Source: Microbacterium wangchenii (GTDB lineage Bacteria; Actinomycetota; Actinomycetes; Actinomycetales; Microbacteriaceae). Taken from it: a stretch of 64,000 nt of DNA. Positions 14,395 to 58,382 of this stretch are shown one piece after another. Position numbers and translations under genes: made by a program. Numbering within the stretch: the first letter of the stretch is position 1; every line of letters starts with the position of its first letter. Location of the stretch: NCBI RefSeq assembly GCF_004564355.1, contig NZ_CP038266.1, forward strand, positions 2,170,001 to 2,234,000. Reading direction: 5' to 3'. The notes beneath the pieces are model-generated. The model did no database searches. It had not been told where the DNA came from and saw nothing but the letters and a program-made list of their open reading frames with translations.

Positions 14395-14446
14395 GTTCGT
14401 CCTGGCGGGTCGGGGAGCAGTACGGCGGCGCGAGCTCGGTCTCAGA

Positions 14447-15499: not shown

Positions 15500-15524
15500 G
15501 GCACTCCTTGCAGGAACCGGCGCG

Positions 15525-17048
15525 TCAGGACTTCGCGCCGCGGGATCCTCCCAGGCTAGCGGCCGCGACGACCCCGGCCACGACGATCAGCCCCGCGCCG
15601 ATGAGTGCGGTCACGACCACGCCCGAGTCGAACGCATGCGCGGCGGCCTCATGCAGGGCAGCCCCCACATCGGGCGGCAGGGCGGATGCGGCGGCCACCG
15701 CTCCCGCGAGGGTCTCGCGCGCAGCATCCGCCGCGGCATCCGGAACTCCCGGCGGGATGACCAGGCCGGCGCGATACAGGGCGGTGAGGATGCCACCGAG
15801 GATCGCGGTGCCCAGCACCGCACCCAGCTCGTAGGCCGTCTCGGACACGGCGCTGGCAGCGCCCGACTTCGCCGAGGGGGCGCTGGAGAGGATCAGCTCG
15901 TTGGAGACCGTCTCGGCCGCGCCGATGCCGATGCCCAGGGCCGCGAAGGCCGCGATGAGCACGGGCAGGTTGCCGGCGGCGAAGGCCACCACGGCGTACG
16001 CGACGACGGAGAACAGCAGCGCGGCAGGCACCACGATGCGGGCGGGGAAGCGCTTGGCGATCGGAACGACGAGGAGGCCGGAGGCGATCATCGCCACGAG
16101 CCCTGGCACGAGCGCGAGCCCGGCCTGCATGGGCGGGAGCCCTACGACCAGCTGCAGATGCTGCGCGGCGAAGTACAGGAAGCCCACGAGTCCCACGACA
16201 CTCAGGAGATTGACCACGATCGCCCCCGAGAACGTGCCCTGCCGGAACAGGCTCATGTCGAGCATGGGGGTCTCCAGGCGCAGCTGCCGCCGGACGAAGA
16301 GCACGCCCACGGCGACCCCGAGCACGAACATGACGGGCGCGATGCTGACCACGCCGTGCACCGCGAGCTCCTTGATGCCGTAGACGATCGGGATCATCGT
16401 CCCGAGCGACAACAGGATGCTGAGCGGATCGGCGCGCCCCGGGCTGGGGTCGCGGCTCTCCGGGACCAGGAGGGGTCCGAGGATCAGCAGCGGGATGAGG
16501 ACCGGCACGGCCAGGAGGAAGACCGAGCCCCACGCGAAGTGCTCCAGGAGGAGCCCGCCCACGATGGGGCCGAGGGCCGAGCCGGCCGAGAACCCGGACG
16601 CCCAGATGGCGATGGCGATGCGGCGCTGGTCACGGTCACGGAAGATCGTGCGCAGGAGCGAGAGCGTCGAGGGCATGAGCATCGCCCCGAACACGCCCAG
16701 GAGCGCCCGCGCGAGGATCAGCAGCGACGCCGTCGGTGCGAACGCGGCCAGGGCGGAGACGACCCCGAAGCCGGTGGCGCCCAGCAGAAGCATCTTGCGG
16801 CGCCCGAACCGGTCGCCGAGGGTGCCCATGGTCACGAGCAGGCCGGCCAGCACCAGCGGGTAGGCGTCGATGATCCACAGCTGCTCGATACTCGTGGGTT
16901 CGAGGTCCAGGGCGATCGCCGGCAGCGCGAAGCTGAGCACGGTGTTGTCGACCGAGACCAGGAGCACCGGCAGCATGAGCACGACGAGCGCCACCCAGCC
17001 GCGCCAATCGGCTCGGAGGGTGGGCAGGGTCGAGGTGGGTTGTGACAT
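15525..17048 (-). CDS. DHA2-family (EmrB/QacA-like) 14-helix MFS efflux transporter
   Basis: A drug:proton antiporter-like permease of about 507 residues with 14 predicted helices. Helix 1 carries [20 protein letters not shown] (the DxTxVNxALP-like motif C region), followed by [13 protein letters not shown] and the motif A loop [13 protein letters not shown], all typical of DHA2 transporters. A TetR gene lies divergently upstream, the standard arrangement for a ligand-induced efflux pump. ATG at 17048 (MSQPTST) or 17057 (MLQMSQ) are both possible; the former is given. Specificity unknown. The stop is 25 bases before leuB, so read-through into leuB and ilvE is possible. Confidence 0.9.
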
Positions 17049-17068
17049 CTGAAGCATGTGCGCGCGAA

Positions 17069-17098
17069 AGCCTAACTGAACCGTCCAGCCGGTATAGT
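17069..17098. promoter_or_regulatory. Divergent promoter/operator between TetR and DHA2 genes
   Basis: ACCG-TCCAGC-CGGT at 17080-17093 is a short inverted repeat placed between a plus-strand -10 box TATAGT (17093-17098, serving the TetR gene) and a minus-strand -10-like TAGGCT (17069-17074, serving the pump gene). It is a reasonable TetR operator; the -35 boxes are weak. Confidence 0.4.
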
Positions 17099-17138
17099 AA
17101 CACGAGACCCTTTCCCCACCCCTGGACCCGAGCACGCC

Positions 17139-17687
17139 ATGAGCAGACCACCCCGCGCCCGCGAGAGCGTCCTGGACGCCTTCGCCGCCATCCTCGCCGC
17201 CGAGGGCGACCGGGCCGCCACGATGGATGCCACGGCCCGCGCCGCGGGGGTGTCCAAGGGCGGGCTCCTGTATCACTTCGCCTCGAAGGACGCGCTCGAA
17301 GCCGGCCTCATCAGCCGCATGGAGGCCCTCGCCGCCGAGGACATCGCGCAGATCAAGCAGTCGCCCGAGGGTGCCGTGGCCGCCTTCATGCGCACGTCGC
17401 TGCACAGCGGTACGCCCTTGGACAACTCCATCGTGGCCGTGTCGCGCCTGGCGCAGAACGGCTGCGCGCCCGCCGTGGCCGCCCTGCGCCGCATCCGGGA
17501 GTCGTGGGAGGAGGCCATCCGCCCGCACGCGCGCGACGAGACCGCTCTGCAGCTGATCATGCTCGTCAGCGACGGTCTCTACTTCAACAACGCCCTGACG
17601 GTCGGCTCCGTCCCCGGCCCCGTCCCCACCGGCGCCGAGCTGGACGCGCTCATCGCGCTCGTGCAGTCCGCCGCATCCGCCGACTGA
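17139..17687 (+). CDS. TetR-family transcriptional regulator (182 aa)
   Basis: The N-terminal TetR HTH is seen in VLDAFAAILAAEGDRAATMD followed by ARAAGVSKGGLLYHFASKDAL (recognition helix near residues 36-46). The C-terminal ligand-binding part is short and helical (VLLxxDGLYFNNALT-like). It lies divergent to the DHA2 efflux gene and by family precedent is its ligand-released repressor. The ATG at 17139 is the first start after a TATAGT -10 box. The stop is 18 bases from the convergent serA stop. Confidence 0.92.
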   Translation: MSRPPRARESVLDAFAAILAAEGDRAATMDATARAAGVSKGGLLYHFASKDALEAGLISRMEALAAEDIAQIKQSPEGAVAAFMRTSLHSGTPLDNSIVAVSRLAQNGCAPAVAALRRIRESWEEAIRPHARDETALQLIMLVSDGLYFNNALTVGSVPGPVPTGAELDALIALVQSAASAD

Positions 17688-17705
17688 CCCGGCGGGGCGC
17701 GCGGA

Positions 17706-19307
17706 TCAGGACTCGGTGATCTCGATCTGGCGGAACATGTCGGCGCCCACCGCTTCGCGCATCTTGGTCAGGATGGCGTCGGGCACCGGCGAATCCACCG
17801 TGAGCACCGAGAGCGCACGGCCACCGTCATCCGGCGCGACCTGCAGGCCCGCGATGTTGATGTTCGCGTCCCCCAGCTCCTTGCCGTAGATCGCCACGAT
17901 GCCGGGGCGGTCCTTGTACCGCATCACGACGTGGTAGCGCTCCAGCGGCACCTCGATGTCGTACCCGTTGATCTCGACGACCTTGGGCACCATGCGGGTT
18001 CCCGCGAGCGTGCCGGCGACGGTCAGCACAGACCCGTCGGCGAGCGTGCCGCGCAGGATCGTGATGTTGCGGTACAGCGGGCTCTCCGGCTCGACGATGA
18101 GACGCACCTCGAGGCCGCGCTGCTCAGCGAACAGCGGCGCGTTGACGTAGGAGACGCTCTCGCTGACGATGCGGCTGAAGATGCCCTTGAGCGCGGCGAG
18201 GCGGTAGACGCTCACGTCGTAGGCGGCCAGTTCGCCGCGCACCTCGATGTCCAGGCTCGTGACCGCGCCGTCCGCGAGGCCGCTGAAGAACTGCCCGAGC
18301 ATCTCCGCGAGGGCGATGCCGGGGCGCACGAACGGGTCGATGACGCCGCCGGCGACGTTGACGGCGTCGGGGACCAGGTCGCCCTCGAGCGCGAGCTTGA
18401 CCGAGCGGGCCACGGAGACGCCGGCCTTCTCCTGCGCCTCGTGGGTGCTCGCGCCCAGGTGCGGCGTCACGACGACGTTGGGGAGGTCCAGCAGCCGGTG
18501 CGCGGGGCCGTCGGCGGCGGGCGGCTCGGTGCTGAACACGTCCAGACCCGCGCCCGCGATCTCACCCGTCGTGAGTGCCGTGTACAGCGCGTCCTCGTCG
18601 ATCAGCCCGCCGCGCGCGACGTTGACGACGTAGGCGGTCCGCTTCATCCGCTGGAGCTGCTCGAGTCCGATCATCCCGGTGGTCTCGGGCGTCTTCGGCA
18701 TGTGGATCGTGAGGAAGTCCACCTGCTCGAGGAGCTCGTCGAGGGTGACCAGCTGCACGCCCAGCTGCTGCGCGCGGGTACTGGTGACGTAGGGGTCGTA
18801 CGCGATGACGCGCATGTCGAATGCCTGCAGGCGCGCCGCGATGAGTGCACCGATGCGGCCGAGCCCGACGATGCCGACGGTCTTCTCGAACAGCTCGGTG
18901 CCGGTGAAGGCGCTGCGCTTCCACTGCCCCTGCGCCAGCGACGCGTGCGCGGCGGGGATGTGCCGGGCGAGGCTCAGGATGTGGCCGACGGTCAGCTCCG
19001 CCGCCGAGACGATGTTGGACGTGGGCGCGTTGACGACCATGACACCCGCCGTCGTGGCGGCCTTGATGTCGACGTTGTCCAGTCCCACGCCCGCACGGGC
19101 GACGACCTTGAGCTTCGGCGCCGCGGCCAGCGCCTCGGCGTCGATCTTCGTCGCGGAGCGCACGAGGATCGCGTTCGCGTCGGCCAGTGCGGCCAGGAGG
19201 GCCGGGCGATCGGTGCCGTCGACGTGTCGCACGTCGAAGTCGGGACCGAGCGCGTCGATCGTTGCGGGAGAGAGTTCTTCGGCGATGAGGACGACGGGGT
19301 TCGTCAC
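17706..19307 (-). CDS. serA: D-3-phosphoglycerate dehydrogenase (long, ACT-containing)
   Basis: The first enzyme of phosphorylated serine synthesis, NAD-dependent. The order is the N-terminal substrate domain, a Rossmann motif GLGRIGALIAARL, RGGLIDEDALY, the catalytic-loop LPNVVVTPHLGAST, then the intervening (ASB-like) domain and a C-terminal ACT domain (RPGIVAIYGKELGDANINI) that binds serine in actinobacterial homologues. 533 residues is the usual length of this form. The GTG at 19307 is preferred to the in-frame GTG at 19328 because an AAGGAT-like ribosome-binding site lies 8 bases upstream of it and the shorter N-terminus matches the family. Confidence 0.96.
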   Translation of the reverse strand: MTNPVVLIAEELSPATIDALGPDFDVRHVDGTDRPALLAALADANAILVRSATKIDAEALAAAPKLKVVARAGVGLDNVDIKAATTAGVMVVNAPTSNIVSAAELTVGHILSLARHIPAAHASLAQGQWKRSAFTGTELFEKTVGIVGLGRIGALIAARLQAFDMRVIAYDPYVTSTRAQQLGVQLVTLDELLEQVDFLTIHMPKTPETTGMIGLEQLQRMKRTAYVVNVARGGLIDEDALYTALTTGEIAGAGLDVFSTEPPAADGPAHRLLDLPNVVVTPHLGASTHEAQEKAGVSVARSVKLALEGDLVPDAVNVAGGVIDPFVRPGIALAEMLGQFFSGLADGAVTSLDIEVRGELAAYDVSVYRLAALKGIFSRIVSESVSYVNAPLFAEQRGLEVRLIVEPESPLYRNITILRGTLADGSVLTVAGTLAGTRMVPKVVEINGYDIEVPLERYHVVMRYKDRPGIVAIYGKELGDANINIAGLQVAPDDGGRALSVLTVDSPVPDAILTKMREAVGADMFRQIEITES

Positions 19308-19436
19308 AGAGGGATCCTTCTGGCGCACGGGTGAGGCGGGTTACGGCGCCGCCCACCTCCGGCCACGGAGGGGCGGCGAGGCCTCCGCCAGCCTAGCGCG
19401 GGCTCGCCCGTCTCCCCGACCGTATGACGGCCGCCC

Positions 19437-19781
19437 TCAGCCGCCGTACAGCGAGAACGACGTCACGGCGTAGGCGAGGATGTTCGTCCAGAACGCCGCA
19501 GCCACGGCGAGGCCGGCGACCAGGACGAGGGCGAACTCCCACGTCCGGCGGCGCCATCCGATGACGAATGCGACGGCGAAGGCGATCATCGGGAAGACGA
19601 TGGGCAGGATGTGCACGAACCAGCCCCACCCGTTCAGCCCGAGAGGGCCGGACGCCTGGCGGATGAGGAGGTCCACGGCGCTCCACACGAGGTACGCGTA
19701 GAACAGCCCGATGAGGCCGGCGACGGCGAGGGCGCGCCACGGAGGCGTGGTGGCCCGTGCGCGTGCGGTGTCCGCGGTCAT
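19437..19781 (-). CDS. Small multi-pass membrane protein (114 aa)
   Basis: No family is recognised. After a short Ala/Thr/Arg-rich cytoplasmic start come three to four hydrophobic helices: ALAVAGLIGLFYAYLVWSAV, WFVHILPIVFPMIAFAVAFVIG and FALVLVAGLAVAAAFWTNI. The start overlaps the stop of the upstream membrane-protein gene by ATGA, so the two are translationally coupled and may form a complex. Its 3' end is about 130 bases before serA. No charged or catalytic residues lie within the helices. Confidence 0.75.
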   Translation of the reverse strand: MTADTARARATTPPWRALAVAGLIGLFYAYLVWSAVDLLIRQASGPLGLNGWGWFVHILPIVFPMIAFAVAFVIGWRRRTWEFALVLVAGLAVAAAFWTNILAYAVTSFSLYGG

Positions 19782-20299
19782 CCGAATGCTCCCGTCAGGA
19801 GGAACGGCCACGGCACCAGCAGCACGACGCCCGCGATAAGCCACGTGAAGCGCACCCATGTGCGCGAACGGCGCGTGAGGGAGTACGCGGCGGCGAACCA
19901 GATCAATGGCGCGGCGGCGGCGGCGATCGTGATCGTGATGAGCGCCACCGAGGGCACCGGGATGGCGCCGACGGACTGCAGCCGCACGCTCACGATGAGC
20001 CACCCCACGGAGTAGAGGATGAACGCGGCGGCGATCATCCCGACCCCGACGAGCCCCGCGTTCCCCAGGGGTGTGGGCTCTGCGTCGGCGGCGGTTTCGA
20101 CCGCGCCACTCCCCCGGCCCACCGCGGTGAAGCCGCGCGGGAGCTTGCGCGACTCCGGCGCATCCGATGGTCTGCTCGACGCGCGCGGCGGCCGGCCGGA
20201 TGGGCGCGGTGGGGCGGGCGCCGCCTCGGTGCCGGGGTCGAGCGTGGGGTCGTCGTCGCCGCCCCAGCTGAGGGCGTCGTCGTCGCGTCCGGTGCTCAC
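19778..20299 (-). CDS. Membrane protein with long disordered N-terminus (173 aa)
   Basis: Residues 1-75 are rich in Asp, Pro, Arg and Ser (low complexity, probably cytoplasmic and disordered). Three hydrophobic helices follow (LVGVGMIAAAFILYSVGWLI, a SVALITITIAAAAAPLIWFA segment, and FTWLIAGVVLLVPWPFLL). The GTG at 20299 is the only start near the acidic head. It is coupled by ATGA to the second small membrane protein. The function is unknown; the pair sits between the folate-enzyme gene and serA in the biosynthetic block and is not part of the widely conserved order. Confidence 0.7.
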   Translation of the reverse strand: MSTGRDDDALSWGGDDDPTLDPGTEAAPAPPRPSGRPPRASSRPSDAPESRKLPRGFTAVGRGSGAVETAADAEPTPLGNAGLVGVGMIAAAFILYSVGWLIVSVRLQSVGAIPVPSVALITITIAAAAAPLIWFAAAYSLTRRSRTWVRFTWLIAGVVLLVPWPFLLTGAFG

Positions 20300-20340
20300 T
20301 CCCCCAGCGTAATCCCCGTCGCATCCGCGCCCCCAGTCCA

Positions 20341-20410
20341 CGCCCTTTCCGCGCGTGCGCGCCCCGCGTGCGTGCGCCCCTTCCGCGCGTGCGCCCTTTC
20401 CGTGCGCCCC
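20341..20410. repeat. Short imperfect direct repeats (CCCTTTCCGCGCGTGCG-like)
   Basis: The motif CCCTTTCCGCGCGTGCGC recurs with small changes at about 20343, 20379 and 20394. This low-complexity C/G tract lies between two minus-strand genes; no coding potential is seen. Confidence 0.5.
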
Positions 20411-20432
20411 CAGCCCTCCGCGCCCCACATCC

Positions 20433-20490
20433 GCGCCACTTCGGTGCGTCCGCGCCGCTTAGAAGCGTGGCGGATGCACCGAACAGGCGC
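20433..20490. repeat. 58-bp imperfect palindrome
   Basis: The half from 20433 (GCGCCACTTCGGTGCGTCC...) is complementary to the half ending 20490 (...GGATGCACCGAACAGGCGC) at all but five of 28 positions, with a 2-base centre. It lies just downstream of the cyclodeaminase-like gene. It has no U-tract and resembles a dispersed intergenic hairpin element rather than a classical terminator. Confidence 0.65.
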
Positions 20491-20528
20491 GATCGTGGGA
20501 TTGCGGGGCGGCGGGGCGGCGGGCCGGC

Positions 20529-21146
20529 TCAGTCGAGCGGCAGTGCGGCGAGGATCGCGTCGATCTCGGAGCGGGCGCGCTCGCTGCGGTCGCCGATATC
20601 GGACAGGCGGCCCAATTCCGCGGTGTCGGACCTGTCGCCGGCGTGCGAGCGGGCCAGGGCGATGTTGGCGCGCAGGTTGATGAGGGCGGCGCCCAGACCC
20701 GCCCGGAGCGATTCCGAAGCCACGCCGGTGTCGGCGACGAGGTGCGGATTGCCCACCTCCGCGACCAGGCGCAGCTGCGCGACGAGGGCGATGCCGACCT
20801 CAGCCAGGTCGGCGGAGGATGCTGCGGCCGCCACGGCCGCGTCGTACAGGCGGGCGCTGCGGTCGGGGCCGTCCTCGCGCAGGGCGGCGCCGAGGGCGAC
20901 CGACCGCACGCCGTCCTCCTCGGATGCCCGCAGGGACGCCGCGCGCAGCTCCCGGACCCGCTCGCCCGCCTCGGCGGCGACGGGCTCGTCGGGCGTGTAC
21001 CCGCACACCATGTGCAGGAGGGCCGCGGCGAGGGCCATCATGACGCCGGCGGCCGATCCTCCGCCGGGCGCTCCGGTGGGCTCGGCCAGGCGCGCGAGCC
21101 ACTCGTCCATGGCCAGGGAGGTGGGAACATCCGGATCGCTCTGCAT
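20529..21146 (-). CDS. Cyclodeaminase/cyclohydrolase family protein (FTCD C-domain-like, 205 aa)
   Basis: An all-helical protein of the formiminotetrahydrofolate cyclodeaminase / methenyl-THF cyclohydrolase (FchA) family. PTGAPGGGSAAGVMMALAAAL near residues 25-45 is the family's Gly-rich signature, and the length matches stand-alone members. Such proteins interconvert one-carbon folates, but many actinobacterial copies are uncharacterised. The ATG at 21146 gives MQSDPDVPTS; longer in-frame starts exist but lack the family pattern. It lies directly downstream of ilvC, separated by a terminator-like hairpin. Confidence 0.8.
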   Translation of the reverse strand: MQSDPDVPTSLAMDEWLARLAEPTGAPGGGSAAGVMMALAAALLHMVCGYTPDEPVAAEAGERVRELRAASLRASEEDGVRSVALGAALREDGPDRSARLYDAAVAAAASSADLAEVGIALVAQLRLVAEVGNPHLVADTGVASESLRAGLGAALINLRANIALARSHAGDRSDTAELGRLSDIGDRSERARSEIDAILAALPLD

Positions 21147-21170
21147 CCGTTCACGATAGCCCCGGAACGC

Positions 21171-21207
21171 ACGGATGCCCCGGACCGCAGTGGCCCGGGG
21201 CATCCGT
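21171..21207 (-). terminator. Hairpin downstream of ilvC
   Basis: ACGGATGCCCCGG (21171-21183) is complementary to CCGGGGCATCCGT (21195-21207) with a short loop, in the gap after the ilvC stop. A strong stem but only a weak U-tract on the minus strand (GCGTTCC). Confidence 0.6.
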
Positions 21208-21216
21208 CGAGGAAGG

Positions 21217-22788
<1,572 letters not shown>

Positions 22789-24591
22789 TCAGTCCTCCTG
22801 CTCGAAGGCGGGCGAGTGGTCGCGGGCGTACTGCACGTAGCTGTTGCTGACGCCCTGCGGCACCATCGGCCACACCATGGCGTCGGCGCTCACGACGAAG
22901 TCGATCACGACGGGCCGGTCGTTGGTCTCCAGGGCCGTGCGGATGGCCGCATCCACGTCCTCCTCCTTCTCCACCCGCAGGGCGAGGCATCCGTATGCCT
23001 CGGCGAGCTTGACGAAGTCGGGGATGCGGATGCTGTCGTGGCCGGTGTTCAGGTCGGTGTGCGAATACCGGCCGTCGTAGAACAGCGTCTGCCACTGGCG
23101 CACCATGCCCAGCGAGGAGTTGTTGATGATCGCGACCTTGATCGGGATCTTGTTGATGACGCAGGTGGCGAGCTCCTGATTGGTCATCTGGAAGCAGCCG
23201 TCGCCGTCGATCGCCCACACCACGCGGTCGGGCTCGGCGACCTTGGCGCCCATGGCTGCCGGCACCGAGTAGCCCATCGTGCCGGCACCGCCGGAGTTGA
23301 GCCAGGAGTTGGGGCGCTCGTACTTGATGAACTGCGCGGCCCACATCTGGTGCTGGCCGACGCCGGCGGCGTACACGCCCTCGGGCCCGGTGAGCTCCCC
23401 GATCCGCTGGATCACGTGCTGCGGGGAGAGCAGGCCGTCTGTGGTCGGGGCGTAGCCGAGGGGGAACTCCGCCCGCAGCCCGTCCAGGAACGACCACCAC
23501 TCGGAGATGTCGGGCGTACTCGTGCCGACGACGTCGCGGTACGCGGCATCCAGGTCCACGAGCACGTCACGCAGATCGCCCACGATCGGCACGTCGGCGA
23601 CGCGGATCTTGGAGATCTCGGCGGGGTCGATGTCGACGTGCACGACCTTCGCGTCGGGGGCGAACAGCGCCGCCTTGCCGGTCACGCGGTCATCGAAGCG
23701 CGCGCCGAGGGAGATCAGCAGGTCGGATTCCTGCAGCGCGAGCACGGCGGGGACCGTGCCGTGCATGCCGGGCATCCCGAGGTGCTGCGGGTGCGAGTCG
23801 GGGAACGCGCCGCGGGCCATGAGCGTGGTCACCACGGGCACGCCGGTCGTCTCGGCGAAGGCGAGCAGCTCCTTGGACGCGCGGGAGCGGATCACGCCGC
23901 CGCCGACGTACAGCACGGGCTTCTTCGCGGCGGCCAGCAGCTGCGCGGCGGACTGGATCTGCTTGCCGTGCGCCTTGGTCACCGGACGGTAGCCGGGAAG
24001 GTCGATCTTCGGTGGCCACACGAACGGCGCCTCGGCCTGCTGCGCGTCCTTCGTGATGTCCACGAGCACGGGGCCGGGGCGGCCGGTCCCGGCGATCTCG
24101 AACGCCGCCGCGATGGCTCCGGGGATCTCCTCGGCGCGCTTGACGAGGATCGAGTGCTTGGTGATGGGCATCGTGATTCCCACGATGTCCGCCTCCTGGA
24201 ACGCGTCGGTCCCCATGAGGGTGGAGAAGACCTGCCCCGTGATGCAGACGATCGGCACCGAGTCCATGTACGCATCGGCGATGGCCGTGACGAGGTTGGT
24301 CGCGCCCGGTCCCGACGTGGCGATGGCGACGCCGGTGCGTCCGGATGCGGCGGCGTAGCCCTCGGCGGCGTGGCCGGCGCCCTGCTCGTGCCGCACGAGG
24401 ATGTGGCGGATCTCGGACGTGTCCATGAGCGGGTCGTAGACCGGCAGGATCGCGCCGCCGGGCAGACCGAACACGTCGGTGACACCGAGCAGCTCGAGGG
24501 AGCGGACGACCGCCTGCGCGCCCGTGAGCACGGGCGCGGGCGCGGTGCGAGCGGGTGGCCGGGGAACGGCCGTGGCGGATTCGGCGGGCAT
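22789..24591 (-). CDS. ilvB: Acetolactate synthase large (catalytic) subunit
   Basis: A ThDP-dependent enzyme condensing pyruvate with pyruvate or 2-oxobutyrate. [16 protein letters not shown] and [15 protein letters not shown] contain the catalytic Glu. The thiamine motif appears as [16 protein letters not shown] ending in an asparagine ([13 protein letters not shown]). 600 residues is typical. The ATG at 24591 is chosen because GAGGA lies 7 bases upstream of it; a more distal ATG at 24606 overlaps that ribosome-binding site. It lies 38 bases after ilvD, with no room for an attenuator between them. Confidence 0.97.
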
Positions 24592-48550: not shown

Positions 48551-51500
48551 CTAGAGGTACACCTCGTCCGCGAAGACGAGCCGCTGCTCCCAGCGCCCCG
48601 GCCCGTCGTCGTTCGGATCGCCGTCGGGGTCGCCCTCGAAGCGCTCCCACTCCTCCACGACGACACGCCACGTCGCCGGGCGGTCGGTCGGGGTGCTGAG
48701 CGGGATCGACTCGGGCGATTCGATGTCGGCGGCCCACGCCCACTGCGCGGCGACTTCGCCGCTGCCGGCGCGGACGAGTTCCACGATCCGCTCGTTGCGC
48801 CATCCGAGGTCCCCCGGCACCGCGGCATCCGCCCGCTGCAGACGCGCGACGAGATAGCGGTTGAGATCGCCGCCGGGCACCGGGACGGGCCGCGACGGTG
48901 CTCCGGCCGTGCCCGTGGCGGTGGTGCCCGACACGGCGACTCGCACGTGGGTCGCGTCGGGACGGCTGACCGTGGTGGTGCGTTCGGGCGGAAGCTGCAC
49001 GAAGTCCGCCTGTACGGGGTCGGACAGGTGCGCGCCGGGCACGCTGTCGGGCTGGTAGCGGGCCACGGCGAGCCGGACGAAGGGCCAGAACGCTCCGCGT
49101 GGATCGACGGCGACATCGACGTACCACAGGCCGCGGTCGGGGTTGAAGCGCGGCCGATAGCCCAGCACGACCACATCCGTCGCCGGCACGTCCTTCGTCG
49201 CCGGCAGCGGCAGCGTCACCTGCGCGGTGACGGGCCGCGCGGGGCCGTGCTCGTCGAAGCCGAGGAACGGCATGAGCTCCTCCACGTCGATGAGCGTCAA
49301 GGGCCGCAGCGGCATCGTGTTGCCGGTCCAGATCGGGTCCTGCCCCCACTTCGACACGTACGGATACCCCGATCCGAGCAGGTCTGGCCCGTCGCCGGGT
49401 GCCGGCGGCGGGCCGGGGAGGTCGTCCTTGGCGCCGAGGGCGAAGAGCACACCGAGCAGCTCCCCCTCGCCGCTGGTGTACCAGGGGCGCTCGAGGTAGA
49501 TGCGGACGCCCGCCCGGCGGCGGTGCCGGATGGCCATCGGCTGCTCCGGCTCCTCCGCGAGGCGGTGTTCGCCGGCGGGTTCTGCGGCATCGCCGGGCGC
49601 GTTCGGATCGGAGTGCGACCAGCGGAACAGCGGGAGCACCGAGTGGATGACCGGTGGCGCCGGCCGCGCCGTCGACGGGACCGACAGCTCGACCGCGTGT
49701 CCCACGACGCTGCCCGCCTCGGTCCCGGGCTCTCCCTCGAGCAGCTCAGGCGCGAAGTACTCGCGGAACCGCGTGCTCGCCACGGCGCGGTAGCGCACGC
49801 GCCGGTGACGCGTGTCGCCGAATTCGTGCATGGCCCTGTGCAGCGACAGCGTGCCCAGCATCGGGATCGGCACGGTGGCGTCTTCGGCGGTCAGGATCGC
49901 GATGTCTTCGTCCGGGCGGATGGGCGTCGTGAACGCCACGGCGGATGCGGCGGCCCGCCGCGTGCCGGCGACGGTGCCGGCAGCGAGATCATCGTCCACG
50001 GCGGGGTCGTCGGACACGTCCTCCCACTCCGCGTTCATCGTCACCTGCGCGGTGCTGGGCCCGTGCACGTCCAGCGCTCCGAAGAGTACGCACGAGGTGG
50101 CGCCGAGGGCTCGGATGGGGGTCAGCGCAGTGGCATCGGGTCGCTCGAGCGGGCGCGGCACGGCGTGCACGAGCAGCACGTCTTCAGCGGGCGTGAACGC
50201 CCACAGCAGTCCGTCCGCGACCGCCTCCCGCACGGCACGGTCGGCTCGGATGGTGGGATCGAGCGTGCGCCACACGCCCAGGTGCTCCAGGCGTGCACGG
50301 TCGAGGGCGCTGGAGAGCCGGAAGCGCTGGAGGTCGCCCGGCGGCAGGCGGAAGGCGAGGGACGCCGCATCCGCCGTCGCCCCCAGCCGGTCGGCGCCCT
50401 CGAGGGTGAGGGAGAGCGTCGACACGTCGGGCCAGCCCCGGTCGGACACGGCGAAGTCCACGGTGAAGCCCTCGAACTCGAAGGGCGAGGTGAGGGCGCG
50501 ATCGAGGCCGGCCTCGGGGAACTGCACGGAGATCCCCCGCACGATCGAATCGGGCAGATACGGCAGCGGGATGCGCGCGCCGGGGTTGGCGACGAACTGC
50601 CCGCCCGGGATGGGGTCGCCCGGGTGGGCGAGCGGGAGGGTCAGCACGTCGGCGGGGTCGACACCGGGCTGGACGACGATCCGCGGCGGAGGATCGACGG
50701 GGATGCGCCCCAGCGGCGTGTCGAGGTCGGCGATGTCGAGGTCGGAGAACGCGCCGTTCTCCCGCAGCGCCGCCGCCAGCGCACGTCGGGGACCGTCGGG
50801 TCCGGTCACGATCCGGTCGAACGCGCCGTGCTGCTCGGCCTGCAGCTGGGAGGTCTTCGGCGGCGCGAGATGGCGACGGGCGGCGGCGGAGAAGGCACCC
50901 GCAGTCGCGGGATGCGTCGCCTGCACCGACGCGAGGTAGTCGGCCGGCGGGGTGACGGTGAGCTCTCCGGTCGCCGCATCCTGCGTCACGCCGCTGCGGA
51001 TCACGAGCACCCGCAGCGACTCCCCCTCGCTGTACACCCCGGTCGGCACGATGGCCGGAGCGGGCGCCGGGTCCCACCGCAGGTAGGGGCGGAGGGGTGT
51101 GACCGTGGCCAGCGCACGCCCGACGACCGCCGGCGCGAGGTCGCCGATGCGGCCGAGGTGGTCGAGGAGGAGGTCGCGGTACCGCGGGAGTTCCGCGCTG
51201 GCGAGCGAGGTGGCCAGCGGCGTGCGCGGCGCGCGGGTAACGGCGTCGTGGATCGCGGCGGTGACCATCGCGCGCCGGCTGGGCGCGGCGTTCTGCGCCG
51301 TGAGGTCTCCGCGGACCCCGACGCCGAGCCGCCGCGTGGCGATGCGCCGGTTCACTTCGTCGGCGACCGGGTCGGGAAGCAGGGACCGCAGCGCGGTGGC
51401 CGTCCCGGTGGGCGAGGTCGTCGAGGCGGCCGACCGCCCGGTCGAGATGGCGCTGACGGCCGCGGTCCGCAGCGCCGTGGCGACGGGGCCGAACGAGCCG

Positions 51501-53401
51501 CCGCCGATGCGTTCGGCGCGCCGCTGCGCCTCGGCCCCGAGGACGCGGTCGGCGAGCACGCGCCCGAGCACCGCCCCGCGATCGCGCGGTGGCCGTGCCG
51601 GCTGCACGCGGCTGTTGCCGGCGAGGTCGACCTGCCACGCCCGGAACGCGTAATCGCGCCCGAACCGCAGGACAGGGAGCGACCCCGGCAGGACCGTGTG
51701 CGACGCGCCGAGCACGTGGCTCGGCACGTGGCGCGGGTCGGCGTCGGGCTCATCGAATCCGCCGGGGCGGTACGGCTGCTCCTCGTAGCCGGCCTGCCCC
51801 TCCCCCGCTGCCGGTTCGTTGCGGATGCCGGCACCGGGGCGGGGCGCGGAGAGGCTCCAGCCCTCCCATCCGAAGAGCGCCTCGTGCACGTGGACCGGAG
51901 GATCGGGGACGCCCGGCGTCTCGTGCGCCGTGGTGCCCTGCAGGTAGCCGAGCGTCTCGGGGATCGTGACAGGCTCATGCCCCTTGATCTCGAACACGGT
52001 GCGGCGCCGGTGCAGCGACGCCCAACGTTTGGCGGTGTCGTCCCACACCTCCACGCGGAAGCCGCGCGTGACCTCTTCGGCCGACAGCGACGCGAGACCG
52101 CCGACGCCCGTGCCGAGATCGATGGACGCCCCCAGGGCCGTCTGCCGCGACATCCGCTCCTGCGTGTCGATCGCGCGCCGGCGCCGCGCGACGGTGAACC
52201 CGGACGCGCGGAGGGCGGGCGGGGCCGCCGACCCGGGAGCGCCGTTCGCCTCGATCCGGGCGAGCCGCGGCAGCGACCACAGATAGCGCTCGGCCTTGAG
52301 CGCCGTGCCATCCGCCTCCAGGTCGAGCACCGTGAAGGTGGGGCCGCCCAGGGCGAGCGCACCGTCCTGCCACTGGTCCGACGCTGGCACGGTCAGGAGG
52401 GCGCCGTCACGGGCGGCATGCACCTGCACGCGGGGCGACCGGCACGCGTCGGGCGGCAGGGTCGGCACGGTGATCGTGGCCGACAGCACGGTCGACTTCG
52501 ACAGCGCGGTAAGGTCGTCCACCTCGAGATCGACCACGAGCCCCAGCATCCGCATGAGCTCGCGATGATCTCCCACCATCGCCAGCCGCTCGTGGAACTC
52601 CTGCTCGCGCGGCCCGAGCGGCGTCGGGGTGACGGTCGGATGCTCCGCGTATGCACCCTGAGACTCCGGGCGTTCGTAATACCGGCGCGCGAGGTGCAGC
52701 TGCAGCAGGCCCCGGTCGAACCCGGATGCGGCGGCCACGGCCTGCTCCTGCGCGGTGAGTGACCCGGCCAGCAGCGCGTCGAACCGCGCGGTCAGCTCCG
52801 CCTCGTCGGGGAACTCGCGCCGGATGTCGGTGTTGAGGTCGCGCAGGATCTGGTCGCGGTCATCCGGTTGGCCGCGCCGGTACGGGCGCGGCGCGCGCAG
52901 TCGTTCCAGCTCCTCCCGCGAGGGTTTCGGGTCGTGGCTCGGCTGCATCGGCATGAGCCGGTTCATGTGCCGCGTGGTCGGAAGCGCCGACGGCAGCGGC
53001 GGATCGGTCGGGGAGATGAGCGTCGCCTGCATCGTCAGTGCGCGCCCGATCTCCTGCACGGCGGCGGCGTCGAAGCTGCGCCACTGCCGTCCGGAGAAAT
53101 CCGGCGCCGCCGGTCCGGCGACGGGGGTGGCCGCGGGGAAGACCGCCGCCCACAGCGCAGCGGCGGCCGTCGTCAGACTCGCCCGCGCGTCGAGCGGGCC
53201 GTTCTGGTTCCGCAGCACGATCGTCGTGTCGGGATGGGTCAGCGCCCCCACCCAGTCGGGGAAGCACGTGAAGTCTGCGAGCGTCGCGCCGCCGGCTGCA
53301 TCCGGTACCAGCCTGGGTGCGACGAAGAGCGACACGTGGGGTCCGACCCCCTCGACCCACGCGCGCGGCAACGCGAGGACGGTGAAGATCTCCGTGTTCA
53401 T
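48551..53401 (-). CDS. Giant protein of unknown function (1616 aa), second gene of the giant pair
   Basis: No family can be named with confidence. It starts MNTEIFTVLALPRAWVEG; the N-terminal 250 residues contain HVSLFVAPRLVP and a helical ERLRAPRPYRRGQ segment. Around residue 589 is a fibronectin-type-III-like strand pair ending AFRAWQVDLAGNSR, and around 1301-1318 a striking YLERPWYTSGEGELLGVL motif that I recall from large uncharacterised bacterial proteins. There is no signal peptide, transmembrane helix, nucleotide-binding or protease motif. Mostly beta-rich composition suggests repeated domains. The ATG at 53401 overlaps the upstream giant gene's stop (ATGA), so the two are translated together. 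Arg/Pro-rich linkers join the domains. It may be a structural or scaffold protein (inference). Confidence 0.8.
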   Translation of the reverse strand: MNTEIFTVLALPRAWVEGVGPHVSLFVAPRLVPDAAGGATLADFTCFPDWVGALTHPDTTIVLRNQNGPLDARASLTTAAAALWAAVFPAATPVAGPAAPDFSGRQWRSFDAAAVQEIGRALTMQATLISPTDPPLPSALPTTRHMNRLMPMQPSHDPKPSREELERLRAPRPYRRGQPDDRDQILRDLNTDIRREFPDEAELTARFDALLAGSLTAQEQAVAAASGFDRGLLQLHLARRYYERPESQGAYAEHPTVTPTPLGPREQEFHERLAMVGDHRELMRMLGLVVDLEVDDLTALSKSTVLSATITVPTLPPDACRSPRVQVHAARDGALLTVPASDQWQDGALALGGPTFTVLDLEADGTALKAERYLWSLPRLARIEANGAPGSAAPPALRASGFTVARRRRAIDTQERMSRQTALGASIDLGTGVGGLASLSAEEVTRGFRVEVWDDTAKRWASLHRRRTVFEIKGHEPVTIPETLGYLQGTTAHETPGVPDPPVHVHEALFGWEGWSLSAPRPGAGIRNEPAAGEGQAGYEEQPYRPGGFDEPDADPRHVPSHVLGASHTVLPGSLPVLRFGRDYAFRAWQVDLAGNSRVQPARPPRDRGAVLGRVLADRVLGAEAQRRAERIGGGSFGPVATALRTAAVSAISTGRSAASTTSPTGTATALRSLLPDPVADEVNRRIATRRLGVGVRGDLTAQNAAPSRRAMVTAAIHDAVTRAPRTPLATSLASAELPRYRDLLLDHLGRIGDLAPAVVGRALATVTPLRPYLRWDPAPAPAIVPTGVYSEGESLRVLVIRSGVTQDAATGELTVTPPADYLASVQATHPATAGAFSAAARRHLAPPKTSQLQAEQHGAFDRIVTGPDGPRRALAAALRENGAFSDLDIADLDTPLGRIPVDPPPRIVVQPGVDPADVLTLPLAHPGDPIPGGQFVANPGARIPLPYLPDSIVRGISVQFPEAGLDRALTSPFEFEGFTVDFAVSDRGWPDVSTLSLTLEGADRLGATADAASLAFRLPPGDLQRFRLSSALDRARLEHLGVWRTLDPTIRADRAVREAVADGLLWAFTPAEDVLLVHAVPRPLERPDATALTPIRALGATSCVLFGALDVHGPSTAQVTMNAEWEDVSDDPAVDDDLAAGTVAGTRRAAASAVAFTTPIRPDEDIAILTAEDATVPIPMLGTLSLHRAMHEFGDTRHRRVRYRAVASTRFREYFAPELLEGEPGTEAGSVVGHAVELSVPSTARPAPPVIHSVLPLFRWSHSDPNAPGDAAEPAGEHRLAEEPEQPMAIRHRRRAGVRIYLERPWYTSGEGELLGVLFALGAKDDLPGPPPAPGDGPDLLGSGYPYVSKWGQDPIWTGNTMPLRPLTLIDVEELMPFLGFDEHGPARPVTAQVTLPLPATKDVPATDVVVLGYRPRFNPDRGLWYVDVAVDPRGAFWPFVRLAVARYQPDSVPGAHLSDPVQADFVQLPPERTTTVSRPDATHVRVAVSGTTATGTAGAPSRPVPVPGGDLNRYLVARLQRADAAVPGDLGWRNERIVELVRAGSGEVAAQWAWAADIESPESIPLSTPTDRPATWRVVVEEWERFEGDPDGDPNDDGPGRWEQRLVFADEVYL

Positions 53402-56400
53402 GCCGGGAGTCCTTTCGTCAGGCTCTCGGTATCGAACGCGGCCCAGTACTCGTCCCAGTCGGGCCACGCGCCGTCGCGCACCATGAGCTGCGCGAGAGAG
53501 GGGTCGCCGTTGGCTCCGGCGAACTGGCGCTCGGCCTCGATCGTGACCGACCCGGAGAAGACGAACACCTCGACCTCGACGGTGATCCGCGCGCGCCCGA
53601 TCATCTTGCCGGTGTCGGGCCGATACATCAGCTCCATGTACAGCTCGATCGACGCCGAGATGAGGCCGAGCACGTCCACTTCGCCGCGGAGCCGGAAGTA
53701 GCCCGTCAGCGAGCCCTTGTCCGACTCGAGCCGCAGGTAGACGCCGATCATGGCCGAGATCGAGCCGCTGGCCACGCCGAAGTCGACCGACAGGGTCGCC
53801 CCCGCCTCCAGGCCCAGTTCGAGCACCTCGAGTCCGTCGGGGGCGAGGCGGATCAGAAACCAGCCGCCGCCGCCGATGAACGCGACGGCCAGGGTGAACG
53901 GGCGCTCGCGCGTGCAGAAGTTGAACCCGACCGACAGGCTCTTGCCCAGGAACGGCACCTGCAGATCCGCGCCCAGCGACAGGTTGGACAGGCTGAAGAC
54001 CCCCACGGCGAGCGAAGGCAGCCCCAGGCTGAACCCGGCGGTGAGCCCCTGCGGCGTCACCTCCAGGTGCGGCGGGTCGGAGAACCCGTCGAACGGGATG
54101 AGGTCCTTGATCGTCTGCACGAAGCTCAGCACGCCGACGAACTCGATCTCGCCGAGGACGACATCCACCTCCGCCTTGCCGTCGGCTCCGGCGACGAACG
54201 CGATGCGCTCGAAAGGCACCCGCATGAGCGGCTCGCTCGGGAACAGGTGCAGCGTGAAGTCGCGCAGCTCGGCGCTGGCCTTCGCCGTCGGCGCCCCCGG
54301 ACCGCCGGTCTTTCCCTCCACGAGGATCGAGAGGGCGTCGTCGGGCATCGTGATGAGGGGGCCCGCCGCCGGCCAGCCCGTGACGACCTTCGGCGACCAT
54401 TCGAAGCGGAAGCGACCGGCGGTGACGGTCTCGGCGATGCCGGTGAGCGCGACGATGAGGTCGTCGACGAGGGAGGCTGCGGAGATCGCCGCGTCGAGCG
54501 CGTCGATGATCCCGGTGAGCGTGTCGCGCAGGAACGGCGTCTGCTCCGGCAGTTTCGGCCGCAGCGCCGCGAGCGGGGCCCTGACCTGTTCGAGCTTCGT
54601 CTTCAGCGTCGACGCCAGATCCTCGGGCTTCGCACTCGTGACGTCGGCGAGTGCGTCCTCGAACGCCTGGGCTGCCGCGGATGCTGCGGCCTCGGCATCC
54701 GCCATGAGATCGCGCGTCGCGATGTCTTCGACCACGCCGGCGGCGCGCTGGAGCCGTTCGACCGCGCGCCGGAGGTCGTCGACCAGCTGCAGCGCCGGCC
54801 CCAGCGACTGGCTCACGACCTCGGGGATGTTCTCGGCGACGTCCTCGATCAGATCCGCGAGGCTGAAGATGCCGAACAGCCGCGGCAGGACGCCGGCGAG
54901 GAACCCGGCGGGGTCGAAGTCGAGCCGCTCGATCTTCGCGAGGTCGTTGACCGGTCCACTCGCGGTGGACAGTCCCCCGACCGCGAGACTCGGGGTGACG
55001 AAGCCCCCGGCGCGGTCGCTCGAGGTCGACGGCGCCGTGCCGAACTCCATCACCGCGAGGGGTGCGGGCGGATCGTCGGCCGCACCGGTCCCCGGCACGA
55101 CAGCGGGAATGGCCGTCGCGCCGTTGAGTACGGCGGCCCACACCTCGCCCCGGTTCTCTCCCTCGGCGACGTACGCGGGGTAATAGCCGATCGTCGTCGC
55201 CCCCGTGCCGGTGAGGCGCTCTACGGCGTCGACGGAGACATCCGCCGAGCTCAGGAAGGGCGTGATCGCCCCCGGGGCGGCGCGTCCGCGCAGCCGGATC
55301 CGCGCCGTCTCGGTCGCGGAGTTCCCCGCATTCGTGGGCGGCGTGTACGCGAGGGTCTGGCCGTGCAGGTCGATGATGCGGTGCTGGCTAGCGTCGTAGG
55401 CCTGCTCGACGGCGGAGACCCCCGTGGCGGTGCTGACGTGGTTCTCCGCCACCCACAGCAGCGGCGTGCTGAAGGCGACGGTGCGGCCCTCGCGGTCGAC
55501 GGCGTCGATCGTGAACCGGAAGTCGAGGGCATTGATCGCCGGCCAGAAGAACGTCTCCTCGTTCTTGCCGGGATCGTCGATGTTCGGGGTCACGAGCGGA
55601 CGGATGCCGACGCGCTGGAACGGCGAACCGCGATGAGCCGGTAGCGGGTACTCGCGCACCGGCTCGTCGATGACGAGGAACTTGCGCTGGAACAGCGCTG
55701 CGACCGAGGGCGAACGCGTCTTCATCTTGCGCTCGGTGATCTTCACCAGCGCCGTGCGATGACGGAAGGGGAAGAGGAACCCGGGATACATGACGCGCAC
55801 GTACTGGTCGCGGCCGAAGGGCGCGAGGTGATCCCACGCGAGGATCGACGCGTAATGAGCATCGGTATAGGGCGTGGAGTTCCACGCCCCGTGCAGTTCG
55901 AGCCAGGCGCCCAGACCCGACAGCCACAGCTTGTCGGCCCGCACGGGGACGGGTGGAATCGCACCGGCCTTCCCTGGCCAGGTCTCGGCGCTCTGACGCA
56001 CGAGGATGTGCCGGTCGCGCCGGTTGAGCGAGCCTCGGAAGGGCCGGTCCTCCGCCTCGGAGGGTGAGCTGAGCTCGGCGGGGGCGACCTCCTGCCACTC
56101 CGCCGGTCCGTCCAGCGCATCCCGGTCGCGTGCCCAGATCGCCCGTACGGCGGTGCCCGTGGGCGGCTCGGGCGGCGTCGCCGGCGCGTCCGGCTCGGGC
56201 GGCGGCACGCGCGTGAGCCGGCTGTGCCACAGCTCCACGTGACGGGTGTCGTCGCGTTCGGCGACGGGGCGCGTCGCGTGCTCCCACCGTCCGGTCCGGT
56301 TCGGGGAGATCACGAGGCGGTAGGGCGCCTCGATCGCCGTCTCCCGAGCGCCGGGGGGCTCGCTGAACGTCCCGTCGCCCCGCAGCGTGAGCCGCGAAGG

Positions 56401-56988
56401 CCCAGGGTCCGGTTCGTCCGGATGCGGAGGCATCCGGTCCGGCGCCGGCGGCGGCCCGCCGGGCAGTCTCACGTCGTCGTCGGCGAGCCGATGCAGCACG
56501 GGCCGCAGCCGCGACATCGCGGCGAGCACGCCTTCCGTGGTGAGGTCGATCTCGTCGTCGCCGATCTCGAACACCAGCCGGGTCGAGCGGGCGGGCCGGT
56601 AGCCGACGGGAGGGACGGGAGCCGCTGCTGTCGTGCCGACTTCGGAAGCGGCCTCTTCGTGTCCGTGCTGGTAGGGGTAGTCGACGGCCAGCAGAGCGGT
56701 CTGGTCGCGCTTGGCGAGGAAGAGCCGCCCCTCCGCTTCGTCCTGCCACAGCTCCGCGCCGTAGAACGTGGCGGTCAGCGCGAGCAGATCGCGCGGGCGC
56801 AGGAGGTCGACCATGATGATGTCGCCGTGCGCGTTCGCGACGTCGGCCGGCGTGCTGTAGCTGGTCACCCCGTCCGGCTCAGGGGGTCTCGGCGGCAGTC
56901 CGATGTACCTCCAGCCGCCCAGGAACCGTTCCACGTGGGGCGGTGGGACCGTGCGAGCGCTCGCGCTGCGTCGACGTTTCGGCGACAT
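53398..56988 (-). CDS. Giant protein of unknown function (1196 aa), first gene of the giant pair
   Basis: GAGGAGG lies 6 bases before the ATG at 56988, a near-perfect ribosome-binding site, so this start is preferred to the ATG at 57006. The protein has a beta-rich N-terminal half with many Pro/Arg/Asp loops, a long helical middle (residues about 686-849, with EAAASAAAQAFEDALADV) and a C-terminal region of alternating amphipathic strands with a Gly-rich GGGGWFLIRL near 1040 and repeated turn patterns such as GSLTGYFRLRGEV. This C-terminal pattern recalls the DUF6603 group by memory, not verified. No secretion signal or catalytic motif is seen. It is divergent from ArsR/SRPBCC genes and coupled to the 1616-codon gene. 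Confidence 0.8.
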   Translation of the reverse strand: MSPKRRRSASARTVPPPHVERFLGGWRYIGLPPRPPEPDGVTSYSTPADVANAHGDIIMVDLLRPRDLLALTATFYGAELWQDEAEGRLFLAKRDQTALLAVDYPYQHGHEEAASEVGTTAAAPVPPVGYRPARSTRLVFEIGDDEIDLTTEGVLAAMSRLRPVLHRLADDDVRLPGGPPPAPDRMPPHPDEPDPGPSRLTLRGDGTFSEPPGARETAIEAPYRLVISPNRTGRWEHATRPVAERDDTRHVELWHSRLTRVPPPEPDAPATPPEPPTGTAVRAIWARDRDALDGPAEWQEVAPAELSSPSEAEDRPFRGSLNRRDRHILVRQSAETWPGKAGAIPPVPVRADKLWLSGLGAWLELHGAWNSTPYTDAHYASILAWDHLAPFGRDQYVRVMYPGFLFPFRHRTALVKITERKMKTRSPSVAALFQRKFLVIDEPVREYPLPAHRGSPFQRVGIRPLVTPNIDDPGKNEETFFWPAINALDFRFTIDAVDREGRTVAFSTPLLWVAENHVSTATGVSAVEQAYDASQHRIIDLHGQTLAYTPPTNAGNSATETARIRLRGRAAPGAITPFLSSADVSVDAVERLTGTGATTIGYYPAYVAEGENRGEVWAAVLNGATAIPAVVPGTGAADDPPAPLAVMEFGTAPSTSSDRAGGFVTPSLAVGGLSTASGPVNDLAKIERLDFDPAGFLAGVLPRLFGIFSLADLIEDVAENIPEVVSQSLGPALQLVDDLRRAVERLQRAAGVVEDIATRDLMADAEAAASAAAQAFEDALADVTSAKPEDLASTLKTKLEQVRAPLAALRPKLPEQTPFLRDTLTGIIDALDAAISAASLVDDLIVALTGIAETVTAGRFRFEWSPKVVTGWPAAGPLITMPDDALSILVEGKTGGPGAPTAKASAELRDFTLHLFPSEPLMRVPFERIAFVAGADGKAEVDVVLGEIEFVGVLSFVQTIKDLIPFDGFSDPPHLEVTPQGLTAGFSLGLPSLAVGVFSLSNLSLGADLQVPFLGKSLSVGFNFCTRERPFTLAVAFIGGGGWFLIRLAPDGLEVLELGLEAGATLSVDFGVASGSISAMIGVYLRLESDKGSLTGYFRLRGEVDVLGLISASIELYMELMYRPDTGKMIGRARITVEVEVFVFSGSVTIEAERQFAGANGDPSLAQLMVRDGAWPDWDEYWAAFDTESLTKGLPA

Positions 56989-58112: not shown

Positions 58113-58382
58113 CTACCAGACGATGCCGCCGCCCATCGAGATGCCACCCCACGTGAGCGCCACGAAGATCGCCGCGAACACGACCGGCGCGATGCCCGTC
58201 CCGCTGCGCGCGAGCCCCTTGAGAAGCGCGATCACGGCAAGGATCGCGGCGACGATCGAGAGGCCGCCACCGAGGATCAGCCCGATGAACAGTGGGATCG
58301 GCATGAGGACGAGGCCGGCCAGAGCGAACCAGAACGCGGCCCAGGCCGCCGGGTTGGTGCGGCGTTCCACGTAGGAGGACAT
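58113..58382 (-). CDS. Small membrane protein (89 aa)
   Basis: Two to three hydrophobic segments (AFWFALAGLVLMPIPLFIGLIL and SIVAAILAVIALLKG, then GIAPVVFAAIFVALTWGGI) after a polar N-terminus with ERRTNPAAW. DUF4190-like composition: a Gly-rich first helix pair and LAVIALLKGLARSGTG connecting loop. No function known. It is convergent with the SRPBCC gene and divergent from the NmrA-1 gene region. Confidence 0.78.
   Translation of the reverse strand: MSSYVERRTNPAAWAAFWFALAGLVLMPIPLFIGLILGGGLSIVAAILAVIALLKGLARSGTGIAPVVFAAIFVALTWGGISMGGGIVW

Follow-up and report, generated by a model that had tools for sequence, protein, structure and literature searches.

The window, a 64,000-nt stretch of Microbacterium wangchenii DNA, contains two giant genes, here named A and B, on its minus strand; the original prediction had described the pair without giving a strand. 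The two genes overlap in the sequence ...CCGGCATGA, and their coordinates are collected together with those of the protein segments in Table 1. A ribosome-site-like gaggagg is located close upstream of the ATG of A (judged by eye), and an alternative in-frame ATG at 57006 would lengthen A by 6 amino acids. Residue numbers of A are the P0002 numbers minus 6. The predicted overlapping genes of 1196 and 1616 codons are both real, because homologues with similar length and the same gene order rule out a chance reading frame. Moreover, the codon-usage distances of A (0.047) and B (0.049) fall inside the range of 14 window genes (0.038-0.096), so the pair is native-like in codon usage, as had been predicted from its neighbours.

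Table 1. Positions in the window of genes A and B and of segments of their products
Feature	Position	Strand	Remark
Gene A	53398..56988	minus	ATG at 56988, stop ends at 53398, 1196 aa; first gene of the pair
A residues ~55-233, N-terminal block	56290..56826	minus	Tat, LysM and lectin additions of relatives lie before or around the block start
A residues ~687-860, helical, mostly less conserved	54409..54930	minus	Absent from L080, L123, L124, L125 and L127
A residues 881-1156, strongly alternating hydrophobic/polar (amphipathic beta)	53521..54348	minus	GGGGW at 1039-1043
Gene B	48551..53401	minus	1616 aa; overlaps A by ATGA
B residues ~600-770, extra segment	51092..51604	minus	Filled in about 20-30% of 30 B rows only
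B residues 1281-1320, conserved	49442..49561	minus	Includes YLERPWYTSGEGELLGVL at 1302-1319
B residues 1441-1480	48962..49081	minus	Conserved stretch

Strand-type periodicity was found across much of A and B, and helix-type periodicity was found in A at about residues 681-840, in agreement with the helical middle segment originally placed at 686-849. The predicted GGGGWFLI near residue 1040 of A begins at residue 1039. The region at 881-1156 showed a lag-2 autocorrelation of +0.28, compared with a highest value of 0.18 in 2000 shuffles, and residues 961-1160 are the best conserved part of A. Stacked soluble beta sheets or a solenoid would account for this pattern as well as a lipid groove would. 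Additionally, a single architecture does not hold for all A proteins, some of which have no helical segment. No Tat motif was present in the A protein of the window, and the best 15-residue Kyte-Doolittle mean in its first 130 residues was 1.22; by these tests, the predicted lack of a signal peptide holds. The predicted lack of a membrane helix is only loosely true, since the best 19-residue windows of A reached borderline values of 1.74 and 1.72, both in the helical segment. By eye, neither A nor B of the window has an LPXTG-like end. In B, the first of the two predicted motifs is present at residue 586 as FRAWQVDLAGNS, spelled differently from the FAWQVDLAGNS originally given, and the second, YLERPWYTSGEGELLGVL, is present at residue 1302. 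B also carries a strand motif that we take to be Fn3-like.

In the profile searches that had been proposed as a check, the cores of A and B matched no characterised family in Pfam, NCBIfam, PADLOC or PHROGs. The likeness to DUF6603-type proteins that had been tentatively suggested was not borne out, as this family gave no Pfam match to A or B of the window at E<=1 and, at E<=0.1, none to any of 34 A and 30 B rows. Single weak matches of A to the MCE family (E 5.5e-4) and the Ag473 lipoprotein (E 6.8e-4) were set aside, each occurring in one of the 34 A rows, as were several Pfam models at E 0.004-0.1 that occurred in one or two rows each. At E<=0.1, PADLOC contained no match for A and B of either the window or S. 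meliloti. A phage origin is unsupported: the four proteins tested had no PHROG match, and no relatives of A were found in phage records or IMG/VR. Against PDB chains, the B profile found nothing at E<=1, and the A profile gave 184 matches at E<=1 (best 3e-4), of which the 60 listed were all located in the helical segment. These listed matches, including designed helical bundles, spikes and syntaxins, were taken as low-complexity noise of that segment. Tc toxins were rejected on the same searches, with no Tc-type Pfam match in the 34 A and 30 B rows, no B match in the PDB and the listed A matches (60 of 184) restricted to the helical segment. The N-terminal stretch of L080 had only weak PDB matches, to designed beta-trefoils. 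A match in G021 (E 1.6e-4) was not counted as a relative because it spans only residues 653-801 of A, mostly the helical segment. A relationship between A and B themselves was also rejected, as profile comparison shows none. No relevant paper on the pair was found in the literature searched; papers outside it or under other names may exist.

Homologue searches identified 1034 relatives of A and 301 of B. Among 80 genome loci found by A alone, 78 contain the end of A, and in 77 of these B starts between -11 and +99 nt from the stop of A on the same strand; in the exception (L038) B is in pieces, and the other two loci (L066 and L073) end within A. The linked loci bear seven phylum labels. Within the phylum of the window, B was found in 7 of 296 genomes, its own genome included. 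Single-sequence searching found A in five of the six other B-positive genomes, and profile searching found it adjoining B in all six. By single sequence at E<=1e-10, A was found in 0 of 44 B-negative genomes, which were chosen by handle rather than at random, 20 being directly listed as negative and the other 24 being taken to be among the remaining 269 negatives. The proposed co-occurrence check thus revealed a near-perfect linkage of A and B. Additionally, the trees of A and B mirror each other (r 0.93 for 63 pairs, against at most 0.14 in 2000 permutations) and have 46 of 60 splits in common.

The pair is an obligate two-gene system that bears no family name in the libraries searched. Its linkage and the lack of a characterised family support the two-component part of the original interpretation, DUF6603 aside; that it is a scaffold or binding system is not proven. 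Its distribution is patchy and mixes phyla, and it is plasmid-borne at times. For an empty-site comparison, eight 20-kb Microbacterium stretches around a conserved upstream gene were used. None of them carried the genes that flank the pair on its other side in the window, so that no insertion point is demonstrable.

Many relatives of A carry a twin-arginine (Tat) motif, a putative export signal. Of the 120 giant A proteins listed, mostly of about 3000 aa, 79 had a Tat motif together with an uncharged stretch (0.1 expected from shuffled N-termini), and only 50 passed when a hydrophobicity cut-off was applied. Among A frames from the loci, the motif occurred in 5 of 82, from Bacteroidota, Balneolota and Chlorobiota bins. 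By eye, Tat-like stretches were also seen in L122, L123 and L127, and L077 showed one with a lipobox-like Cys that did not pass the strict Tat test. The same test found the motif in 0 of 120 close A and 0 of 120 close B proteins (a second test flagged one of the 120 close A proteins), and with A of the window also without the motif, export is not conserved in the window's clade. On pC of S. meliloti, a tatA gene is located directly 3' of B.

Added domains were found in other relatives. Two LysM domains each are present in A of L029, L080, L043 and L074; LysM matches occurred in 3 of 34 A rows, belonging to one Mycobacteriaceae/Nocardiaceae clade. A beta-propeller lectin (NF052350) was found in 2 of 34 A rows, with a best E of 2.3e-54. 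For the lineages concerned, the Tat motifs and the LysM and lectin domains indicate a link with the cell envelope.

We tentatively favor an explanation, which we hold to be a serious possibility rather than a probable one, in which A and B are subunits of one large obligate complex that in many lineages would work at the cell envelope or beyond it. The Tat pathway would export A in folded form (possibly as a lipoprotein in a few cases), and in one clade LysM or lectin domains would hold A to the wall or to sugars. The signal-less B, made right after A, would bind it in the cytoplasm and ride along. The conserved C-terminal amphipathic beta region of A may be the working core, a lipid-contacting hydrophobic groove or barrel, with B as the partner completing or capping the assembly. 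In the window's clade, where no export signal was seen, the pair might act inside the cell or exit by lysis or another route. Against this explanation, a cargo of about 300 kDa (over 500 kDa for the giants) would be unusual for the Tat pathway, and linkage is not proof of binding.

Taken alone, the linkage would be compatible with A and B, which are unrelated by profile comparison, being co-inherited for operon reasons only and forming no complex. However, the genes lie almost end to end in 77 of 78 loci, which bear seven phylum labels, and their trees mirror each other; this is more than we would expect of an ordinary operon and makes this account very improbable. The lectin and LysM fusions, the presumed Fn3-like motif of B and the widespread strand-type periodicity would also agree with a large surface adhesin or matrix pair that has no lipid role and whose beta regions are stacked Ig/Fn3-like domains. 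We consider such a pair unlikely, because Pfam adhesin domains are absent from the 30 B rows, the best conserved part of A lies within an unusually hydrophobic and strictly alternating region, and the window proteins have neither a signal (by the tests used) nor an LPXTG-like end.

The neighbouring genes bear on two further explanations. In rhizobia, distant giant A genes are located near dpdE, near restriction-type genes, near N-6 methylase, WYL, UvrD and PD-(D/E)XK genes, or near an AAA ATPase with an endonuclease and an S8 peptidase (in these four loci, B adjoining A was checked by sequence in two, leaving out L101 and L102). In Williamsia L043, an S8 protease precedes the pair, matching the PADLOC 'subtilase' model (E 2.8e-47) and, weakly, IetS models. 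These neighbours and the patchy, phylum-mixing, at times plasmid-borne distribution would suit a mobile two-gene cassette for defence or antagonism, which protects from phage or harms competitors, for example by a membrane pore. However, defence genes may be common on rhizobial plasmids in general, and PADLOC matches neither A nor B of the window or of S. meliloti; the genes beside the pair look ordinary both in the window and in Diaphorobacter, and Tat export would be odd in an intracellular anti-phage system. We therefore doubt this role about as much as that of an adhesin. Alternatively, the pair might be a secreted or cytosolic scaffold with nearby enzymes as cargo. In Williamsia L043 and L045, genes for an S8 protease, a hydrolase-like protein (judged by eye, with no Pfam or NCBIfam match), A, B and a tyrosinase (Pfam E 1.6e-32; PGBD-like N-terminus by eye) run in one direction. 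In Arthrobacter L048, A is preceded by a gene whose alpha/beta-hydrolase matches are sub-threshold; in Ruegeria, a zinc phospholipase C gene lies upstream of A; and in Rhizobium L092, a patatin gene follows B at a distance of about 0.8 kb. However, no enzyme family is a widespread neighbour, and no third gene with broad conservation was found: neighbour clustering gave generic or clade-level partners, and the commonest neighbour family, present in 9 of 84 loci, resembles a generic ABC ATPase. The third Williamsia locus (L074) is without the protease and hydrolase neighbours, and the window's pair stands alone, leaving cargo carriage quite unlikely.

If the envelope complex is taken further, the pair could found a new class of giant envelope machines, each built of two proteins and encoded by a two-gene cassette that crosses phyla. 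In such a machine, a beta protein exported by Tat, whose C-terminal groove or barrel contacts lipid, would bring along a giant partner that has no signal of its own. LysM or lectin domains would re-target the machine in some lineages, and in one actinobacterial clade, which includes the window, it would serve without the signal as a cytoplasmic device, possibly for defence. This extended proposal is conceivable but doubtful. Whatever its role, a tightly linked giant pair that has more than a thousand homologues and loci under seven phylum labels, yet no family name in the libraries searched, represents an annotation gap. If the giant complex is Tat-borne, it would probe how large a folded protein can be exported and would be a new type of envelope assembly; if the pair is instead a cassette for defence or antagonism, it would be one missed by current models.

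Among known proteins, LysM proteins (PF01476) and CV39L-type beta-propeller lectins (NF052350) resemble A only through added parts: LysM is an addition in one clade and is not present in A of the window, and the lectin is an N-terminal addition outside the family core. Bridge-like and AsmA-TamB lipid-transfer proteins, found at the envelope, have a long amphipathic beta sheet, one face of which is aliphatic; any likeness to A would be one of pattern only, with no sequence match found. In Tat hitchhiker complexes such as PaoABC of E. coli (PMC4273604), one subunit has a Tat signal and its partners have none. A and B would resemble these through the Tat motif that A bears in many relatives, but they differ in that export of the partner would have to be presumed, the window's clade is without a Tat motif, and the two proteins are giants with no matched enzyme family.

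The coupled giant genes of the original prediction, hereafter A (1196 aa) and B (1616 aa), are real and lie on the minus strand with an ATGA overlap; the host genome is a single contig of 3.83 Mb. A good ribosome site for A was recognised by eye, as was a possible one for B (aaagga), within the end of A. Ordinary-looking genes, named from reading their sequences only, flank the pair: on the opposite strand upstream lie genes of the ArsR and SRPBCC types, and on the downstream side are those for a VOC-type protein and an HxlR-type regulator. A and B look like a stand-alone pair. Additionally, a small gene past the upstream flank showed DNA matches of approximately 80-86% in nine loci, all from Microbacterium genomes (L104-L112), and its protein was refound in three 20-kb stretches (L113-L115) with no other window gene nearby.

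Features of the A-B pair and its relatives (L-numbers denote loci from other genomes; coordinates are positions in the window or locus)
Feature	Source	Position	Strand	Remark
Gene A	window	53398-56988	minus	overlaps B by ATGA
Gene B	window	48551-53401	minus	overlaps A by ATGA
Small gene	window	58113-58382		past the upstream flank
Williamsia cassette	L043	6182-19341		one direction throughout
Williamsia cassette	L045	6173-19377		one direction throughout
A-B repeated	L036, Nocardia abscessus	9620-23275		A-B, PGBD-like gene (by eye), second A-B partly within locus
A and B in several pieces	L038, Microbacterium elymi	9860-18538		decayed copy or assembly errors
tatA	L096, S. meliloti pC (conjugative)	22655-22822		directly after B
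Giant pair	S. meliloti pC			A 3052 aa; B 1766 aa
Giant pair	R. ruizarguesonis p3			A 3106 aa; B 1780 aa
Giant pair	Ruegeria			A 3311 aa; B ~1900 aa
Giant A	A. vitis			A 3039 aa; B match in second of two smaller downstream genes
Giant A	S. meliloti accessoryA			A 2277 aa; next large gene not matched to B by sequence
Giant A	R. leguminosarum			A match only

The linkage of A and B was assessed in 80 loci located through A alone. The C-terminal end of A was present in 78 of them (L066 and L073 stop before A ends), and in 77 of these 78, B starts -11 to +99 nt from the A stop on the same strand, the exception being L038, in which B is fragmented. The converse search, with B, was positive in 7 of 296 genomes from the phylum, the window's own among them. 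A single-sequence search with A found only the own genome and one other (G105) among 149 genomes of the phylum; among 51 chosen genomes, it found the own genome, 5 of the 6 other B-positives and none of the 44 negatives. With the A profile, A directly precedes B in all six other B-positive genomes, including G255, where A is too distant for the single-sequence search. The co-occurrence anticipated for a linked system was borne out. A and B tree distances correlated at 0.93 (maximum of 2000 permutations, 0.14), and 46 of 60 splits were common to both trees. The mirrored trees and the linkage show common inheritance, not contact. The window pair belongs to an obligate two-protein system that is widespread and has no name; linkage and co-inheritance are the strongest claims, followed by an envelope location in the Tat-, LysM- or lectin-bearing relatives.

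At E<=0.001, 1034 of 7999 scored candidates were relatives of A and 301 of 8000 were relatives of B; the best 120 of each were nearly all nameless or 'hypothetical'. The nearest match to A was 95%, and the nearest named relative of B was a Microbacterium lushaniae protein (92%). A search of 59 genomes from the genus and 39 from the order (98 in all) gave convincing A matches only in the own genome and G045, where B follows A. Seventeen plasmid records matched A, none covering 80% of it, and the phage records and viral contigs searched gave no match. A species-genome scan with the A alignment yielded 146 relatives. From these, 80 loci were retained, and the 62 with long A and long B, plus the window, were used for trees. 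These comprised Actinomycetota (40), Pseudomonadota (15), Bacteroidota (2), Balneolota (2), and one each of Chlorobiota, Cyanobacteriota and Myxococcota, the last five labels coming from metagenome bins only. The Actinomycetota label needs five changes on the A tree (four forced by well-supported branches) and five on the B tree (all forced), and a Sphingomonas, a Nitratireductor and a betaproteobacterial row are nested in a mainly actinobacterial group. This mixing of phyla likely reflects transfer, of which label-change counts are no proof. The codon usage of the window pair is native-like, in keeping with the predicted lack of a recent-transfer sign, so any transfer is probably old.

In a 78-row alignment, A shows helix-type periodicity at 681-840 and, at 881-1160, strand-type periodicity in nearly every segment scanned, with positive mean hydrophobicity; 961-1160 is the best conserved part. 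Hydrophobicity autocorrelation at lag 2 reached +0.28 over 881-1156, where 2000 shuffles gave at most 0.18, and was -0.47 for the helical segment. This segment aligned through in one piece in 79 of 80 spanning A frames and was almost absent in L080, L123, L124, L125 and L127, where the N-terminal blocks lead to the C-terminal blocks. The alternation along this long region gives it one aliphatic face, which points to a hydrophobic groove, a barrel or sheets that are stacked tightly; lipid contact would be the likeliest reading. The pattern in B is mixed and in part strand-like, and its conservation peaks lie at 561-600, 1241-1320 and 1441-1480.

Far larger versions of A occur on rhizobial and Ruegeria plasmids. 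The S. meliloti giant A as query gave 191 matches, of which the best 120, including the query, were examined. A strict Tat test, which required a twin-arginine motif and then an uncharged stretch in the N-terminal 70 residues, was passed by 79 of these 120 (0.1 expected from shuffled N-termini) and by none of 120 close relatives of window A or 120 of window B; with a hydrophobicity cut-off, the counts were 50, 1 and 0, respectively. Five of 82 A frames from loci passed the strict test (L037, L041, L046, L059 and L062). Tat-like stretches were seen by eye in actinobacterial L122, L123 and L127, whereas L077 failed the test despite carrying SRRDFL together with a lipobox-like cysteine; such a cysteine occurs in 2 of 82 giants with a bare Tat motif. 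Each A of L029, L080, L043 and L074 contains two LysM domains, with propeller-type repeats in L029 and L080. Given these Tat motifs, LysM domains and propeller repeats, A probably faces the envelope in many lineages, and the window's clade either lost the signal or never had it. The tatA gene of L096 perhaps serves the Tat-motif giant A.

No broadly conserved third gene was found, the commonest neighbour family (9 of 84 loci) resembling a generic ABC ATPase. Clade-level neighbours include phospholipase C and patatin genes and, in two of three Williamsia loci, a cassette in which an S8 protease and a protein judged hydrolase-like by eye are followed by A (with LysM), B and a tyrosinase whose N-terminus looks PGBD-like by eye, and in which no signal peptide was obvious by eye; the third locus (L074) differs. 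Two uncharacterised families (~650-710 and ~330-370 aa) that occur close to A-B in bins of Bacteroidota, Balneolota and Chlorobiota (L037, L041, L059 and L062) had no Pfam or NCBIfam match in the members tested. On four conjugative rhizobial plasmids (L095, L099, L101 and L102, with B matched by sequence in the first two only), giant A lies near restriction, Dpd (dpdE), methylase, AAA-nuclease or toxin-antitoxin genes, an uncontrolled observation. This is a lead towards a defence role for A-B rather than evidence of it; the giant pair is accompanied instead by conjugation genes and tatA on S. meliloti pC and by a phospholipase in Ruegeria, and the shorter pair of Diaphorobacter by metabolic genes.

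Profile searches of both proteins, as proposed in the original prediction, revealed no characterised family for either core. Window A and B had no match in Pfam or NCBIfam (E<=1), PADLOC (E<=0.1) or PHROGs (E<=0.01), and the cores had no convincing match among 34 A and 30 B rows chosen for diversity, window proteins included. Among the A rows, Pfam LysM matched three, NCBIfam LysM-type models three and beta-propeller lectins two, other matches being weak and single; the B rows gave only two Pfam matches at E ~0.07 and none in NCBIfam. Against PDB chains, the B profile had no match at E<=1, and the A matches shown were all restricted to the helical segment. Compared with known families, A-B would be new as sequence families only, and their folds may prove familiar.
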